Assembly (NCBI GenBank): GCA_904419075.1
Contig: CAJFQM010000002.1
Coordinates: 124,001-188,000 of the forward strand
Origin: an uncultured Clostridia bacterium
GTDB lineage: Bacteria > Bacillota > Clostridia > Christensenellales > Borkfalkiaceae
DNA: 64,000 nucleotides
Reading direction: 5' to 3'
Shown: positions 51,022 to 57,636 of the stretch, piece after piece
Layout of the letters: each line of letters opens with the position of its first letter
Position numbering within the stretch: position 1 is the first letter of the stretch
The notes under the pieces: generated by a model
Told to the model about the DNA's origin: nothing
What the model saw: only the letters and a program-made list of their open reading frames with translations
Database searches by the model: none
Position numbers and translations under genes: made by a program

Positions 51022-51074
51022 AAATTTATACGGAGAAAAAGTCAAAAAAATCCAAAAAAATTTTTTCTTAACTA

Positions 51075-51103
51075 TTGAAAAAGCTCGGAATTTGTGATAT
51101 AAT
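51075..51103 (+). promoter_or_regulatory. promoter of degenerate hydrogenase-like gene
   Basis: TTGAAA (51075-51080) and extended -10 TGA-TATAAT (51098-51103), spacer 17. About 75 bases before the GTG start. Confidence 0.82.
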
Positions 51104-51181
51104 AAAACCAATATAGATTTGCAGAAAACGGAATCGGTAAAAATATTGCAATTCCGTCGGGAAAACAAGGAGGATTTAAAG

Positions 51182-53011
51182 GTGAGTTACATAGTTATCG
51201 ACGGCGAAGAACGGGAGGCCGTTTGCCCTACGGGAGCGATGACCATTAAAAACGAAACGGATAAAGCCTGGGAAATTTTGCGTGGAGATAAAGAATCGAC
51301 GCGCGCCGTCGTTCAGATTGCTCCTGCCGTGAGAGTGACTTTGGGTGAAAAATTCGGTTTAGCGCGCGGCGAAGATGCGATGGGAAAGATTGTCGCCGCC
51401 CTTAAAAAAATCGGCGCGGATTTTGTCGTCGATGCCGCTTTTGCGGCCGATATCGTTGCCGCCAGGGAGGCGGAAGAGCTCGCCGAAAGAATGAAGAACG
51501 GCGGCAAGCTGCCCATGTTTTCGGCGGCTTGCCCCGCTTGGGCGCATTATGCGGAAAATCGGTATCCCGACTTGAAAGAATATTTCTCCTCCTGCCGTTC
51601 CCCCATGCAGACGTTCGGAGAAGGATTGAAAAAATGCTTCGCGGCATTGAATGACGGCAAGGAAACAAAGGTCATCGCGGTAGTATCCTGTGCTGCTGAA
51701 AAGTGCGAGGAAGTTTCCGAAGATGAAATTCCGTCCGTGGATTTAGTATTGACGACGGACGAACTTTCCGAGATGTTCGCCGAAGAGAAAATCCGTCTGC
51801 GCCTTCTTAAAAACGAAAAAGCGGACGAGCCGTTCTCTTCTTATACCGGCGCGGGGATTTTGACGGGAACCGCGGGCGGCGTTACCGAAGCGATTGTACG
51901 CGCGCTCAGCGAAGATAAATCCGAAGATGCGTTTGCAAAGATAGAATACAGCGGTATCCGCAGCCGAAAAGAATTCAGAGAAGCCGAAATTCAGGTCGGC
52001 GGATTGACGATAAAGGCCGCGGTGGTTTGCGGTCTGAAAGCCGCGGACGAATTGGCGGAAAAAATAGTTGCGGGCGAAAGTACTTATGACTTTGTAGAAG
52101 TATCCGTTTGCCCTGACGGATGCGTTTCGGGCGGCGGTCAGATAACCTCCGATGAAACGACGGAAAAACTTCGTGCCGCGGGACTTTGTTATATGGACAA
52201 AAATTGTGCCTTGCGTTCGCCCGAACAAAATGAAACCGCGATGAATTTCGGCTCTCCCGAATTTGCCGCGGAATTCGTCGAAGAATTTAAGGCGCGTACC
52301 GAGGAAGTCGTTGAAGCCGCTGAGACGGTGGAAGAAGAACCCGTCGAGGAACCGACCGAGGAAGTCGTTGAAACCACTGAGACGGTGGAAGAAGAACCCG
52401 CCGAGGAACCGACCGAGGAAGTCGTTGAAACCACTGAGACGGTGGAAGAAGAACCCGCCGAGGAACCGACTGAGGAAGTCGTTGAAACTGTCGAAACGGT
52501 GGAAGAAGAACCTGTTGAGGAACAGGCAGAAACTTCTGAAGAGCTTTCTCAGATAGAAGGAGAAATCGCCGCGGCTGACGATATTACAGACGATATCGAA
52601 GAGGAACCGTTAGAAGAGCTTTTTGAGGAAGAGACGAGCGAGCCTGTTTTGGAAGAAAGCAAAGACGAAGAAAACGTCGAAGAAATATTGACGGAACAGG
52701 CAAATCCTTTGGAAGAGGCTGCGGCAACAGAAGCAGAATCCGAAAAAGATACGATTGAAGATACTTTGGAAGAATCTTCAGAGACGGAAGTGGAGCCTGC
52801 GGAAGAGTCTATGGAAGAAAAGGCCGCAGAAATGCAGGAGGCGGAAGAAACGGAGGAAGTTCTTTCGTCCGACAACGATGATTCGGAGACGGAAGAAATT
52901 TTGCAAGACGCTGCCGAAGAGGATTCGGAGAAAAAAGCTGAACCTTATCATAGAACGCTTTCCCGTAAAGAGCGCAAAAAATTAAAGAAAATGAGAAAAG
53001 CCAAACATTAA
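51182..53011 (+). CDS. [FeFe]-hydrogenase-like H-cluster protein with acidic repeat tail
   Basis: 609 residues from GTG 51182, which follows AAGGAGG by 8 bases. Residues 1-25 keep only the end of a ferredoxin domain (CPTGAM). Residues about 40-365 match the [FeFe] hydrogenase catalytic domain (VVQIAPAVRVTLGEKFGL). The four Cys expected to bind the H-cluster are kept: Cys117 (AACPAW), Cys170 (SCAAEKCE), Cys310 and Cys314 (CPDGCVSGGGQ). The proton-relay Cys of TSCCP is Ala116, and the conserved Lys of the second motif is Glu173. This pattern is reported for sensory-type rather than catalytic hydrogenases. Residues about 372-585 are an extremely Glu-rich, presumably disordered tail with four 19-residue tandem repeats, ending in a Lys/Arg-rich stretch. 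A redox or hydrogen sensor for the adjacent enzyme is a reasonable guess. Confidence 0.8.
   Translation: MSYIVIDGEEREAVCPTGAMTIKNETDKAWEILRGDKESTRAVVQIAPAVRVTLGEKFGLARGEDAMGKIVAALKKIGADFVVDAAFAADIVAAREAEELAERMKNGGKLPMFSAACPAWAHYAENRYPDLKEYFSSCRSPMQTFGEGLKKCFAALNDGKETKVIAVVSCAAEKCEEVSEDEIPSVDLVLTTDELSEMFAEEKIRLRLLKNEKADEPFSSYTGAGILTGTAGGVTEAIVRALSEDKSEDAFAKIEYSGIRSRKEFREAEIQVGGLTIKAAVVCGLKAADELAEKIVAGESTYDFVEVSVCPDGCVSGGGQITSDETTEKLRAAGLCYMDKNCALRSPEQNETAMNFGSPEFAAEFVEEFKARTEEVVEAAETVEEEPVEEPTEEVVETTETVEEEPAEEPTEEVVETTETVEEEPAEEPTEEVVETVETVEEEPVEEQAETSEELSQIEGEIAAADDITDDIEEEPLEELFEEETSEPVLEESKDEENVEEILTEQANPLEEAAATEAESEKDTIEDTLEESSETEVEPAEESMEEKAAEMQEAEETEEVLSSDNDDSETEEILQDAAEEDSEKKAEPYHRTLSRKERKKLKKMRKAKH
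52298..52525 (+). repeat. four tandem 57-nt repeats encoding an acidic 19-residue unit
   Basis: Units start at 52298, 52355, 52412 and 52469. Each encodes variants of TEEVVETTETVEEEPAEEP. The middle two units are nearly identical at the DNA level, which implies recent duplication and possible copy-number change. Confidence 0.92.
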
Positions 53012-53172: not shown

Positions 53173-53205
53173 ACTCTTTTGCCGTTCGGGCAAAGGAGTT
53201 TTTTT
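53173..53205 (+). promoter_or_regulatory. terminator-like hairpin burying the ribosome site of the hydrogenase regulator
   Basis: ACTCTTTTGCC (53173-53183) pairs over 11 bp with GGCAAAGGAGT (53189-53199), loop GTTCG, then seven T. The 3' arm contains the ribosome site AAAGGAG (53192-53198) and the ATG lies 7 bases after the stem. The hairpin could both terminate transcription and block translation, which suggests attenuation. Upstream, CCGCC (53115-53119) and GGCGG (53160-53164) could form an alternative pairing. Confidence 0.7.
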
Positions 53206-53454
53206 ATGACCGAAAAACGTATAAGCGTCGTAAGCATTCTCGTTTCCGATCGTTCGGAAAGCGAAAAGGTAAACAATCTTCTTTCCGAATACGGGGAATA
53301 TATTCTCGGACGAATGGGGATACCGTATAAGGAAAAGAACGTTTCCGTGCTGTCCGTCGTACTCGACGCTCCGATAGAAATTACCAACGCTTTGACGGGA
53401 AAATTGGGAAAGATAGACAATGTTGCCGTCAAAGCTCTGTTTGGAAAAATTTGA
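53206..53454 (+). CDS. TM1266-type iron-only hydrogenase system regulator
   Basis: 82 residues from ATG 53206. An ACT/NikR-C-like ferredoxin-fold domain: RISVVSILVSDRSESEKVNN, EYGEYILGRMGIPYKEKNVS, SVVLDAP and a C-terminal GKLGKIDNVAVKALF. This is the pattern of the small TM1266 family, which is named for its genomic link to [FeFe] hydrogenases; biochemical function is not established. Its leader contains the hairpin that hides the ribosome site. It stands between the degenerate and the intact hydrogenase genes. Confidence 0.85.
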   Translation: MTEKRISVVSILVSDRSESEKVNNLLSEYGEYILGRMGIPYKEKNVSVLSVVLDAPIEITNALTGKLGKIDNVAVKALFGKI

Positions 53455-53561: not shown

Positions 53562-54560
53562 ATGAAAAAAATTTTATCCGCAATATGCGGAACGCTCGCC
53601 GCCGCATTTATCTTTGTCGGTTCCGCTTGTTCGACGAAGATCGAAACCAATCCGACAAAAGAAATTTATATGCCCGACGGTGCGCCCGCCTTGGCCATGG
53701 CGCAGCTTATGGCTTCCGAATCGGAAACGGAAAGCTATCATGTCGTCGACTCTTCCACCATTCAGACTTATGTCACGGGGGAAAATCCCAAAGCCGATCT
53801 CTGTATTCTTCCCCTGAATCTCGCCAGTAAACTCTTGGGAACGGGGGAGACCTATCAAATGCTCGGAACCGTGACGCACGGCAATTTATATATGCTTTCG
53901 ACGGATACTTCCGTTCAATATACGACGGAAAATCTGGACGGATTGATCGGAAAAACCGTCGGGGTCGTCCAGCTCCAAAACGTACCCGGACTTACTTTCA
54001 AAGTCATTCTCGAACAAAACGAAATTCCTTGGCAGGAAATGGGAAACAGCACTCAGCCGGCGGCGGACAAGGTCAATCTGAAAGCGGTGACGCCCGACGC
54101 GGTAAGCCCTGCCACGGGGCTGGATTGTTACGTGGCGCCCGAGCCTGCGGCAAGTTTGAAGGTGTCTAAGACCGATTTGGAATTTGTCGGAGACTTGCAG
54201 CAGCTTTACGGCGGTGAAAAGGGGTATCCCCAAGCGGTATTGGTCGCAAAAAAGAGTCTGATACAGACGCACGAAGATTGGGTAAAGAGTTTTATGACAT
54301 CCATGACAAACGCCGCAAAGTGGCTGGAAACGGCGGAGATAAAGACGATCGTTTCCGCTGTATCCTCTCATCTCACGGACGGCCTGACTCCCTCTTTGAC
54401 GGAGAACAATCTTTCCGCGACTGCCATCGAACATTCGGGAATCCGCTTTGAGAAGGCGTCGGATTGCAAAGAAGAGGTAAACGGCTTTCTCGAAAAGATG
54501 ATCAAGGTCAATCCCGAATCGGCAAAGGCTGTTTCGGATAATTTCTACTATCATGTCTGA
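53562..54560 (+). CDS. ABC transporter substrate-binding lipoprotein (NMT1/SsuA-like)
   Basis: 332 residues from ATG 53562 with AAAAGGAG upstream. Signal peptide with lipobox VGSAC, so it is a membrane-anchored binding protein. The body resembles NMT1/TauA/SsuA-type periplasmic-binding folds: IYMPDGAPALAMAQLM, KADLCILPLNLASKLL, VGVVQLQNVPGLTFK. Such systems import sulfonates, nitrate, pyrimidine thiamine precursors or other small anions. Its stop overlaps the permease start by 8 bases. The ligand is unknown; the hydrogenase neighbourhood suggests a link to that locus but does not prove one. Confidence 0.85.
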   Translation: MKKILSAICGTLAAAFIFVGSACSTKIETNPTKEIYMPDGAPALAMAQLMASESETESYHVVDSSTIQTYVTGENPKADLCILPLNLASKLLGTGETYQMLGTVTHGNLYMLSTDTSVQYTTENLDGLIGKTVGVVQLQNVPGLTFKVILEQNEIPWQEMGNSTQPAADKVNLKAVTPDAVSPATGLDCYVAPEPAASLKVSKTDLEFVGDLQQLYGGEKGYPQAVLVAKKSLIQTHEDWVKSFMTSMTNAAKWLETAEIKTIVSAVSSHLTDGLTPSLTENNLSATAIEHSGIRFEKASDCKEEVNGFLEKMIKVNPESAKAVSDNFYYHV

Positions 54561-55311
54561 AAAGAAATTCTTTTTGAGAAATCTTTTATGGTCGGTAGCC
54601 GCGCTCGCCTTTTTATGGGCGGCGTGGCTGTTGGTGCATCTTCTCGTGAAAAACGATTATCTCGTTCCGTCCTTTTCGTCGGCTATGCAAAAAGTCGGGG
54701 AATATCTGAGAGACGGAGCATTTTGGAATGCGTTTTTCAATACGTTTCTGCGCACATTAACGGCATTTTTTATTTCCTTTTTCGGGGCGGCAATCTTCGC
54801 GACGGCCGCTTATCTGCTGCCTCCGCTGGGGTATTTTTTGTCGCCTTTGGTGTCCGTGATGAGAAGCCTTCCCACAATGGCCGTCATTCTCATTATTCTC
54901 GTTTGGACGACGCCCGTTCAAGCTCCCGTCGCCGTGGCGTTTCTCGCACTGTTTCCGCTTCTTTATTCGGGAATTTTTTCGGCGTTGAAGCAGGTTGATG
55001 GGAAGCTGGTGGAAATGAGTAAAATATATCGTGTTCCCGTAAGAAAGCAAATTTTCGGATTATATCTTCCCTCCGCCGCCCCGTACGTCCTTCGGGAAGC
55101 CGCCGCGGCGCTTTCCTTTTCCTTGAAACTTACGGTTTCGGCCGAAGTGCTCGCCAATACCTATCAGAGCATCGGCGGCATGATGCAGGAGGCGAAAATT
55201 TATGTGGAGGTGCCCGCGCTGTTCGCTTTGACCGCGCTTGTCGTAATAGCGGGATTTTTGTTGGAAGGCCTCGGAGCGGCTGCCGCATACGCGGCAAGGA
55301 GGCGGATATGA
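54553..55311 (+). CDS. ABC transporter permease (SsuC/TauC-like)
   Basis: 252 residues with about six membrane helices. The cytoplasmic EAA loop is visible around YRVPVRKQIFGLYLPSAAPY, the contact site for the ATPase. It resembles permeases of sulfonate/nitrate/HMP importers. It overlaps both flanking genes (8 bases upstream, 4 bases downstream), giving a compact SBP-permease-ATPase operon. Confidence 0.88.
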   Translation: MSEKKFFLRNLLWSVAALAFLWAAWLLVHLLVKNDYLVPSFSSAMQKVGEYLRDGAFWNAFFNTFLRTLTAFFISFFGAAIFATAAYLLPPLGYFLSPLVSVMRSLPTMAVILIILVWTTPVQAPVAVAFLALFPLLYSGIFSALKQVDGKLVEMSKIYRVPVRKQIFGLYLPSAAPYVLREAAAALSFSLKLTVSAEVLANTYQSIGGMMQEAKIYVEVPALFALTALVVIAGFLLEGLGAAAAYAARRRI

Positions 55312-55994
55312 TACGGCTTTCGGACATATCTAAGGCATACGGTCCGCAAAGGGTGTTTGAAAATTTTTCTCTCGAAATAGAGGACGGAAAAATTCTCTGT
55401 GTTTTAGGGGAATCGGGCGGCGGAAAGACGACGCTTTTGAATATCTTGGCGGGGCTCGTTCCCTTTTCGGGCAATCTTTCGGGCGTCCCGAAACGTGTTT
55501 CTTATATCTTTCAGGAGCCGCGCCTGCTGCCCAATATGACCGTGAAACAAAACCTCGCTTATGCGGGCGGAGCGCCGGAGAAAATCGACGATATTCTCGA
55601 AAAGACGGAACTTATAAAGTGTGCAAATAAGCGGCCCGGAGAACTTTCCGGCGGTGAAAAACAGCGGGTTTCGATCGCTCGCGCGTTTTTAATTCCTTCC
55701 GAACTTTTGTTGATGGACGAGCCTTTTTCGTCGTTGGATACGGCGCTGAAAATTCGATTGACGGAAGTTTTCGCCCGGCTTTGGAAATCTCTGCCAGAAA
55801 AGCGGACGGCAGTATTCGTCACGCACGATCTGGAAGAAGCGCTGATGCTCGCCGATCGGATAATCGTGTTGAAAAACGGACGGGTATCCGCGGACGTTTC
55901 TTTGAATCGGGAGGTTTTTCCCTCGGCTTATGCGGCGCCCTGTACGGAGCGGAAAAAATTGCTTTCCGTATTGCTGGAAGGGGAAAATTGCTGA
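55308..55994 (+). CDS. ABC transporter ATP-binding protein
   Basis: 228 residues. Walker A GESGGGKTT, Q-loop FQEPRLLP, signature LSGGEKQRVS, Walker B LLLMDEPFSSLD and H-loop VFVTHDLEEALM. The nitrate/sulfonate/taurine class is likely from the partner genes. It is the last gene of the importer operon; the hydrogenase promoter follows 50 bases later. Confidence 0.92.
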   Translation: MIRLSDISKAYGPQRVFENFSLEIEDGKILCVLGESGGGKTTLLNILAGLVPFSGNLSGVPKRVSYIFQEPRLLPNMTVKQNLAYAGGAPEKIDDILEKTELIKCANKRPGELSGGEKQRVSIARAFLIPSELLLMDEPFSSLDTALKIRLTEVFARLWKSLPEKRTAVFVTHDLEEALMLADRIIVLKNGRVSADVSLNREVFPSAYAAPCTERKKLLSVLLEGENC

Positions 55995-56127: not shown

Positions 56128-57636
56128 ATGAGAGGATTGGAAACTTCCGTCGTACGTTTGAGACACGAAGTTTTTAAGGAAGTGGCGAAAGTCGCCTACA
56201 ATTCCGCGCCCGAAGATATCAACAGCGATATCGAAGCAATTCCCTACACCATTACCCCTACGGAGGTACCCCAATACCGCGAGAGCATTTACCGCGAACG
56301 TGCAATTGCTTCCGAGCGGGTACGGCTGGCGATGGGCATGTCGCTCAGGCCTTCAGATAAACCCGTACACATTACCAGCGGTTTGGATCAGAGCAATATC
56401 TCCGATAAATATTACGAACCGCCTTTAATGCAGGTGATTCCCTCCGCATGCGATAAATGCGAAGATAACGTCTATGAAGTCACCAATCAATGCCGCGGCT
56501 GTGTCGCGAAAGCATGCGTGGCGGCTTGCCCCAAAGGCGCCATTTCCATCGTCGACGGAAAATCCGTCATCGACAGGGAAAAGTGTATTCGCTGCGGGAA
56601 GTGCAAAGCGGCGTGTCCCTATGACGCGATCGCGCATAAAGTGCGCCCTTGCGCGCAGGCGTGCGGAATCAAAGCCATTTCTTCGGACGAACTCGGCCGA
56701 GCGAAAATCGACAACGATAAATGCGTCGGCTGCGGTCAGTGCATGGTCAGTTGCCCCTTCGGCGCGATTGCCGACAAGTCTCAGATTTTCCAACTGATTC
56801 AGGCGATCAAGAAAGGGGACTATATCGTGGCGGAAGTGGCTCCCGCCATTGTCGGACAATTCGGAGAAAACGTCTCTCTCGCGCAGATCAAGGGCGCCTT
56901 GAAAGATATCGGCTTCAAAGAGGTTCACGAGGTCGCCAGCGGCGCGGACGTCGGCGCGGCGACGGAAGCACATCACTACGTAGAAGAAGTGGTGCCCGGG
57001 AAACTTCCGTTCCTCTTGACCTCCTGCTGTCCCGCGTGGGCGATGCTCGCCAAGAAACAGTTCCCGCAGCTGATCGGAGAGGTCTCTCAGGCGCTGACGC
57101 CCATGGTCGCGACGGCGCGTAAGATAAAACAGAAAACGCCTCAGGCCCGCGTGGTCTTTATCGGGCCTTGCGCAGCCAAAAAATTGGAGGCTTCCCGCGC
57201 GTCCGTGCGGAGCGACGTGGATTTCGTCATCACGTTCGAGGAGCTGGCGGGCATGTTCGCGGCGAAGGAAATCGATTTCTCGAAATACGCCGAGGGCTGT
57301 GCTATGCATGAAGCCACGGGCGCCGGACGCGGATATGCCGTCGCGGGCGGCGTCGCCTCCGCGATCGAACAATGCGTCAAGGCTTACTATCCCGGCGTCG
57401 ATGTGAAAATCGAGCACGCGGAAGGGCTCGATGCCTGCAAGAAAGTATTGATTCTCGCCAAATTGGGCAAGAAAAACGGCTGTCTTATCGAAGGAATGGG
57501 CTGCCCGGGCGGCTGTGTAGCGGGCGCGGGCACAAATCTTGCCGTGGAAAAGGCGACGGCGGAGGTCAAAAAATTCGTGGAAAATTCCACGAAGAAACTT
57601 CCGCCCAAAGAATTGTACGAAATCGATTTGCCGTAA
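56128..57636 (+). CDS. [FeFe] hydrogenase, group-B-like monomeric
   Basis: 502 residues, no signal peptide, so cytoplasmic. Ferredoxin-like cluster motifs occur at Cys122-134 (QCRGCVAKACVAACP), Cys153-163 (CIRCGKCKAACP) and Cys199-209 (CVGCGQCMVSCP). The H-cluster motifs are intact: TSCCPAW (298-304), GPCAAKK (347-353) and CPGGCVAGAG with Cys459 and Cys463. The second and third motifs (GPCAAKK, EGMGCPGGCVAGAG) are those of group B enzymes rather than the classical MPC/MACPGGC set. It should catalyse H2 evolution or uptake with ferredoxin. The HydE, HydF and HydG maturases are not in the window. Confidence 0.92.
   Translation: MRGLETSVVRLRHEVFKEVAKVAYNSAPEDINSDIEAIPYTITPTEVPQYRESIYRERAIASERVRLAMGMSLRPSDKPVHITSGLDQSNISDKYYEPPLMQVIPSACDKCEDNVYEVTNQCRGCVAKACVAACPKGAISIVDGKSVIDREKCIRCGKCKAACPYDAIAHKVRPCAQACGIKAISSDELGRAKIDNDKCVGCGQCMVSCPFGAIADKSQIFQLIQAIKKGDYIVAEVAPAIVGQFGENVSLAQIKGALKDIGFKEVHEVASGADVGAATEAHHYVEEVVPGKLPFLLTSCCPAWAMLAKKQFPQLIGEVSQALTPMVATARKIKQKTPQARVVFIGPCAAKKLEASRASVRSDVDFVITFEELAGMFAAKEIDFSKYAEGCAMHEATGAGRGYAVAGGVASAIEQCVKAYYPGVDVKIEHAEGLDACKKVLILAKLGKKNGCLIEGMGCPGGCVAGAGTNLAVEKATAEVKKFVENSTKKLPPKELYEIDLP

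Follow-up and report, generated by a model that had tools for sequence, protein, structure and literature searches.

A candidate pseudohydrogenase with a long acidic tail, encoded ahead of an ABC importer in a genus of uncultured Clostridia

The window analyzed here, a stretch of 64,000 nucleotides from an uncultured Clostridia bacterium of the family Borkfalkiaceae (contig CAJFQM010000002.1, positions 124,001 to 188,000), carries a gene for a protein with an [FeFe]-hydrogenase H-domain, which we call the pseudohydrogenase, followed by a putative regulator gene, the three genes of an ABC importer and a second hydrogenase homologue. The features of this locus, with positions counted from the start of the window, are as follows.

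51075–51103, + strand: sigma-A-like promoter TTGAAA-N17-TATAAT with an extended -10 (11 of 12 matches)
51167–51173, + strand: ribosome-binding site AAGGAGG, ahead of the GTG start at 51182
51182–53011, + strand: pseudohydrogenase gene, 609 amino acids, GTG start at 51182 and stop at 53011
51305–52135, + strand: H-domain (Pfam Fe_hyd_lg_C, residues 42–318, 247.8 bits)
51521–51541, + strand: motif 1, SAACPAW, with Ala116 in place of the relay Cys and ligand Cys117 kept
51683–51703, + strand: motif 2, VSCAAEK, with ligand Cys170 kept and M353, P354 and K358 changed to V168, S169 and E173
52103–52123, + strand: motif 3, SVCPDGC, with ligands Cys310 and Cys314 kept and M497 changed to S308
52280–52927, + strand: Glu-rich acidic linker, with four 57-bp (19-amino-acid) repeats at 52298–52523
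52928–53008, + strand: conserved basic C-terminal peptide, found with the pseudohydrogenase family only
53173–53205, + strand: terminator-like hairpin and T run, the 3' arm holding the TM1266 Shine-Dalgarno sequence (predicted fold z -3.68)
53206–53454, + strand: TM1266-family putative regulator of the hydrogenase system (TIGR03959, 105.2 bits; cut-off 60.8)
53562–54560, + strand: ABC importer substrate-binding protein (SBP), predicted TauA/NMT1-type fold, best match 3hn0
54553–55311, + strand: ABC importer permease (Pfam)
55308–55994, + strand: ABC importer ATPase (Pfam)
56128–57636, + strand: group B1 [FeFe]-hydrogenase homologue (TIGR04105, 602.5 bits; cut-off 450), three motifs intact

The reading frame of the pseudohydrogenase is intact and real, and its orthologues at the same locus in nine further genomes show that it is not a chance open reading frame; the call of the start is well backed by the AAGGAGG and the promoter. 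As the promoter scan overall came close to chance (7 promoter-like sites against 5.6 expected), only the strength of the pair at 51075–51103 and its recurrence at the orthologues count: by eye, a similar pair precedes the gene in 9 of the 10 orthologous loci, G078 not being clear. A Rex-like box at 51065–51082 (3 mismatches) was rejected, being at chance level for the window, with 3 found against 2.92 expected; of the ten upstream stretches, that of the window alone beat most of its shuffles (13 of 300 as good), the other nine did not, and locus L071 has 0 such boxes.

Fe_hyd_lg_C is the sole Pfam domain of the protein, the search having matched neither an Fe-S domain nor a PAS domain toward the C-terminus. 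The predicted fold of the H-domain (pLDDT 78.4, pTM 0.83) best matches HydA of the T. kivui HydABC (TMq 0.79), and the closest curated family match is the NADH-dependent group A6 HydA (NCBIfam); the TIGR02512 score, 290.8 bits, lies below the cut-off of 405.95. The ferredoxin domain is gone, C15 being all that is left of the ferredoxin-region Cys residues N-terminal to the H-domain. An original prediction, made by a model from the sequence alone, had described a nearly vanished ferredoxin domain, an added acidic tail and, as neighbors, a TM1266-type regulator, an ABC importer and an intact group-B-like hydrogenase, all of which the present analysis bears out, the regulator and the hydrogenase by their TIGR03959 and TIGR04105 scores.

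Residues were placed by alignment to the solved CpI together with a local alignment, the ligand positions resting on one alignment. As that prediction had it, all four H-cluster Cys residues are kept in the window copy (C300, C355, C499 and C503 of CpI are C117, C170, C310 and C314), the relay Cys C299 is replaced by A116, leaving neither Cys nor Asp at that place, and the motif-2 Lys K358 is replaced by E173. The pocket is further changed at M353 (V168), P354 (S169), Q325 (M142), F417 (T228) and M497 (S308); M353, K358, F417 and M497 are pocket residues of a catalytic group A hydrogenase. Retained are the equivalents of E279, E282, R286 and S319, namely E96, E99, R103 and S136, which belong to the outer proton path. 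Nor is the loss of the relay Cys peculiar to this genome: none of the 10 orthologues has a Cys there, the residue in its place being A, E, R, Q or P. In 8 of the 10, one or more cluster ligands are missing, and the full set of four is present solely in the window copy and G078; C300 is retained in 7, C355 in 3, C499 in 8 and C503 in 7, with a Cys one residue away from position 499 in G035. If the ancestor carried all four, these losses amount to at least seven separate events on the tree.

The tail, put at roughly 210 residues in the original prediction, comprises 243 (367–609) and is 36% Glu, free of Cys and of net charge -82, save that its final 27 residues, which close with KAKH, carry a net +10. 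Eight copies of this basic peptide were aligned, and at E <= 1e-5 it is found in 10 of the 57 genomes of the genus, exactly those that carry the H-domain, with one copy per carrier genome and two in G078. It was seen in none but the window's own genome in a sample of the order (396 genomes) and one of the class (391), two samples that overlap, and a search of 13 genomes at E <= 1 added just five matches, all at E 0.06 or worse. The idea that the acidic tail is a common module was dropped, since a search of its own genome (E <= 0.001) returned only itself.

An H-domain search of the 57 genus genomes gave the gene in nine besides that of the window, and the ten orthologues were told from other H-domains by match start, tail and position in the locus. 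All were read, the genes of G007, G004 and G079 being cut by a contig end, with the tail peptide and SBP on a second contig. The nine others share 33–46% identity with the window copy, and no stop codon falls inside the ten H-domain matches. The phylogeny with hydrogenase groups A–D that had been proposed as a check separates the family, and does so beside group A rather than with the sensory groups C and D: the ten form one clade (100/95), and a 100/100 branch parts them from B, C and D. This tree holds 62 rows from 81 distinct H-domain frames, after removal of a second copy of the window gene and of group A rows nearly identical to one another, and represents groups A–D only; G007 and G067 have unusual composition, and group A minus the pseudohydrogenase clade has only 90/83.

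The H-domain is under purifying selection, roughly gauged: dN/dS is 0.13–0.20 in 6 of 6 pairs, including two in which both members are ligand-depleted; dS, at about 1.0 to 3.0, is close to saturation or past it, which makes the values rough. TrmB, for which the ratio could be computed in 3 of the 6 pairs, lies lower at 0.04–0.13, so the pseudohydrogenase gene evolves faster. Nine or more of the 10 orthologues agree at 68 H-domain positions, and just 28 of these hold group A-constant residues; the new constants D65, V83, S257 and A347 occur in 0 of 23 group A rows.

The place of the gene is constant. In all ten orthologous loci it follows trmB or trmB-FeADH-HAD and precedes the SBP gene; upstream stands trmB in seven (with dut ahead in six, the G066 contig starting at trmB) and dut-trmB-FeADH-HAD in three, and TM1266 lies between the pseudohydrogenase gene and SBP in 3 of the 10. 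The gene is absent from all 34 further importer loci of the genus, where SBP comes after trmB, with another open reading frame between them in three and a 1.8-kb stretch in G023. It is thus dispensable, an optional first gene ahead of the importer. A tblastn search of 7 intergenic stretches from gene-free loci gave one weak reverse-strand match and no gene remnant. The synteny that the original prediction had suggested examining is that of the importer unit, often with TM1266, Rex, AdhE or HydB, the pseudohydrogenase joining it in only 10 of 57 genomes. Of the 44 genus loci, 29 have a Rex-type gene, so named from two Pfam domains plus BLAST to one of them and frequently accompanied by AdhE, and 12 have HydB; both counts are lower bounds, as several contigs end early. 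Rex control of the pseudohydrogenase gene was considered and set aside: for all the frequency of this neighbor, no operator emerged.

TM1266 stands directly before SBP in 10 of 44 loci of the genus and, in two sets from other genera, in 1 of 4 and 10 of 18, and it looks as if TM1266 and the importer are the older unit, to which the pseudohydrogenase gene was added in first place. The row TM1266-SBP-permease-ATPase recurs across families of the order (L155, L181–L188, L192, L196), the ATPase not being seen in L192, and in G053 and G102 (L179, L180) a diverged SBP-permease pair lies directly 3' of a group A hydA. On a Dut+TrmB tree of 40 genomes, which includes 9 of the 10 carriers (the G066 contig lacks Dut), the presence of the gene needs seven changes, four of them forced by the starred branches, and is no more clustered than shuffled labels (87 of 500 as low). 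The simplest reading, from the constant place and the single protein clade, is one gain and repeated loss; the Dut+TrmB tree, with its poor resolution, does not demonstrate this. The pairing of a group C with a group B hydrogenase, seen in other families of the order, was rejected as a counterpart locus, having a different arrangement in which the importer is missing and a SpoIIE-like protein lies between; a PAS match was found in 1 of the 2 group C proteins scanned.

Several smaller features of these loci are recorded here. The SBP has a predicted fold (pLDDT 86) with 3hn0 as best match (E 2.1e-16, TMq 0.69), followed by PqqT and a thiamin binder, and matches no Pfam family. In 8 of 121 genomes it appears to be circularly permuted, the C-terminal half preceding the N-terminal half in match order (G035:C6, at L067:5694-6707, and G006, G016, G020, G031, G002, G120 and G088); in G035 the rearranged protein opens with what resembles a signal peptide. 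The hairpin before TM1266, CTCTTTTGCC..GGCAAAGGAG and a T run, has the TM1266 Shine-Dalgarno sequence within its 3' arm and is absent from the list of a simple terminator scan. By eye, a comparable hairpin lies upstream of TM1266 in G010, G007, G062, G031, G081 and others, and in G010 it is not in the lowest-energy fold; an attenuator is possible. An element TATGCCCG-N-GCA(T/A), downstream of trmB and upstream of the pseudohydrogenase gene or the importer genes in G066, G079, G004, G011, G022, G023, G033, G008 and G027 and common to loci with and without the pseudohydrogenase gene, is a possible operator. A riboswitch before the importer did not emerge from Rfam, which at the gathering threshold gave only one tRNA in the window.

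The genome of the window (G000) has three H-domain genes, the pseudohydrogenase, its group B1 neighbor and an A6-type HydA; the last is complete, lies on another contig (G000:C12), scores 780.4 bits against a cut-off of 765 and keeps all H-cluster motifs. HydB proteins from the genus loci likewise have all three motifs intact in 12 of 12 read. The maturase HydG (TIGR03955, E <= 1e-3) had no match in any of the 57 genus genomes, many of which are incomplete, with 12 reaching 90% completeness or more at 5% contamination or less. Among 14 control genomes 7 match, T. maritima among them, and one passes the cut-off; HydG passes it in 10 of 121 relatives, all of other families, which indicates that the search works. 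HydF (TIGR03918) was over the cut-off in 0 of the 10 carriers, its matches lying in the GTPase part, up to about position 185 of 392. Together these results make an H-cluster assembled by the known route unlikely, and the chance that the pseudohydrogenase of the window ever carries a 2Fe subcluster is lowered by the missing maturases. That it is an H-cluster protein, as first proposed, is thus not upheld, most of its orthologues being also unable to bind the cluster canonically.

The apparent lack of maturases alongside hydrogenases that look intact poses a second puzzle, and a larger one. A few species are described, in the part of PMC3226654 available, as holding [FeFe]-hydrogenase genes without the three maturases, and PMC11437800, likewise seen in part, gives them as absent in G. 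intestinalis, G. muris and S. barkhanus; a genus-wide bacterial case was not found in the literature searched. As a separate observation, motif 1 reads TSCSP in 36 of 42 group A rows (for example L091:4526-6271, L012 and L022), the relay Cys being kept and ligand C300 changed to Ser, with Q325 changed to His in 3 of 3 aligned. Such HydA proteins occur in genomes with and without HydG, and an excerpt of PMC3787301 mentions TSCSPGW for a Melainabacteria genome.

Fold, place and tail peptide have been kept, and selection maintained, while the ligands decay in parallel, and from this we infer an adaptor. On balance we judge, with modest confidence, that the gene encodes a pseudohydrogenase, an H-cluster-free cytosolic adaptor derived from a group A-type HydA and placed first before an ABC importer. 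The sequence shows that a copy related to group A HydA lost its ferredoxin domains and catalytic pocket while the H-domain fold was retained, and that it acquired an extended acidic spacer ending in the conserved basic peptide. Its position before the importer is observed, and cotranscription with it seems probable. The H-domain would bind a partner from its own locus, either the cytosolic side of the importer or a hydrogenase complex, and the flexible acidic arm would place the basic tip on an anionic surface, for example membrane or RNA. The scaffold half of the original 'sensor or scaffold' is favored by the relay Cys missing throughout and the ligands lost in eight of ten. Judging from the residues kept, the four remaining Cys of the window copy and of G078 could hold a [4Fe-4S] cluster, which those of the other eight orthologues, by the same alignment, cannot hold canonically; a cofactor role may persist in the window copy, given its four ligands and four outer proton-path residues.

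The alternative that survives best, unlikely in our view yet deserving real weight, is a Nar1-like Fe-S protein, the H-domain of which would hold a [4Fe-4S] or other Fe-S cluster and serve as redox sensor or as cluster carrier for its neighbors. The window copy and G078 retain all four cubane-site ligands, and Nar1, as described in PMC12621388, has the hydrogenase fold and lacks the 2Fe part. However, one or more ligands are missing from the canonical places in 8 of 10 orthologues, and the second cluster site of Nar1 has no counterpart, only C15 being left. A decaying, functionless gene under relaxed selection after duplication is improbable: patchy presence (10 of 57), repeated ligand loss and fast divergence would suit it, but the lack of stops, the dN/dS values, the recurrence of promoter and C-terminal peptide and the new constant residues speak for maintenance.

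The hydrogen sensor of the original prediction, a hydrogen or redox sensor of the HydS kind with a full H-cluster, regulating the hydrogenase at 56128, is more doubtful still. A TM1266-family gene is nearby, and the change of the relay Cys to Ala is, according to an excerpt of PMC10407848, what groups C and D mostly show (among our aligned rows, Ala in 2 of 2 group D and Cys in 2 of 2 group C). Yet the family is placed outside the C/D part of the tree, the C-terminal Fe-S or PAS domain is absent and the tail Cys-free, K358, M353, F417 and M497 are all replaced, the orthologues lose ligands, HydG is not found and HydF stays below its cut-off. We give least credence to the reading as a hydrogenase that still turns over, slowly, by a proton path of its own. 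This would agree with the four ligands and E279/E282/R286/S319 equivalents of the window copy and with a group D enzyme that, in the same excerpt (PMC10407848), works slowly without the relay Cys, but not with Glu in place of Lys358, the want of ferredoxin clusters for electron supply, the missing HydG and HydF, or the finding, from the part of PMC3485046 available, that CaHydA keeps efficient turnover only with Asp at the relay place.

Under the adaptor reading, the data suggest that an enzyme fold has apparently been given a new, non-catalytic job. In eukaryotes a hydrogenase-fold protein without hydrogenase chemistry is known in Nar1 (PMC12621388, in part); a bacterial family of such make-up was not found in the literature searched, the coverage of which was partial and gives no proof of absence in print. 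With its graded loss of the cluster site, a bacterial family like this would offer a naturally occurring series in which fold and chemistry can be told apart and the still indispensable parts of the fold read off. More tentatively, and short of an even chance, the whole genus may hold the [FeFe]-hydrogenase fold loose from the known H-cluster machinery, the pseudohydrogenase standing at the far end as an importer-linked adaptor and bacterial counterpart of Nar1. HydG, and HydF where tested, are missing, and motifs are kept in group B and some group A proteins, which would call for an unknown route to the H-cluster or another job. If the absence of maturases holds, the question becomes how an H-cluster comes about, or what role such proteins play in its absence, across a whole clade, and homology-based counts of hydrogenases would overstate H2 production by these bacteria.

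Among known systems, the group A HydA (A6; T. kivui HydA1, PDB 8a6t) shares the H-domain fold, with 38% identity in the fold match, and forms the neighboring clade. In contrast to it, the pseudohydrogenase lacks ferredoxin domains and relay Cys, has a changed pocket, falls below the TIGR02512 cut-off and bears the acidic tail and basic tip as extras; the four H-cluster Cys of catalytic group A are found in the window copy, but in just 2 of the 10 orthologues. The monomeric group B1 [FeFe]-hydrogenase, represented by the neighbor at 56128–57636, shares the H-domain family, yet keeps all its motifs and is divided from the pseudohydrogenase by the 100/100 branch. Sensory HydS proteins (groups C and D) have the change of the relay Cys to Ala and a nearby hydrogenase in common with it, but differ in their C-terminal Fe-S/PAS module and tree position, and the pseudohydrogenase has lost further pocket residues. 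Nar1/IOP1/CIAO3 of eukaryotic Fe-S assembly, set beside it by description, has a hydrogenase fold and, like the pseudohydrogenase, apparently no hydrogenase chemistry, and the window copy and G078 retain the cubane-site Cys residues. For Nar1 itself, PMC12621388 describes a further cluster site and targeting through a C-terminal Trp, whereas in the pseudohydrogenase the N-terminal cluster site is gone, the C-terminus is basic (KAKH, with no Trp) and the cubane ligands are incomplete in 8 of 10. By this analogy the likeness to Nar1 would be one of kind of working and not of membership.
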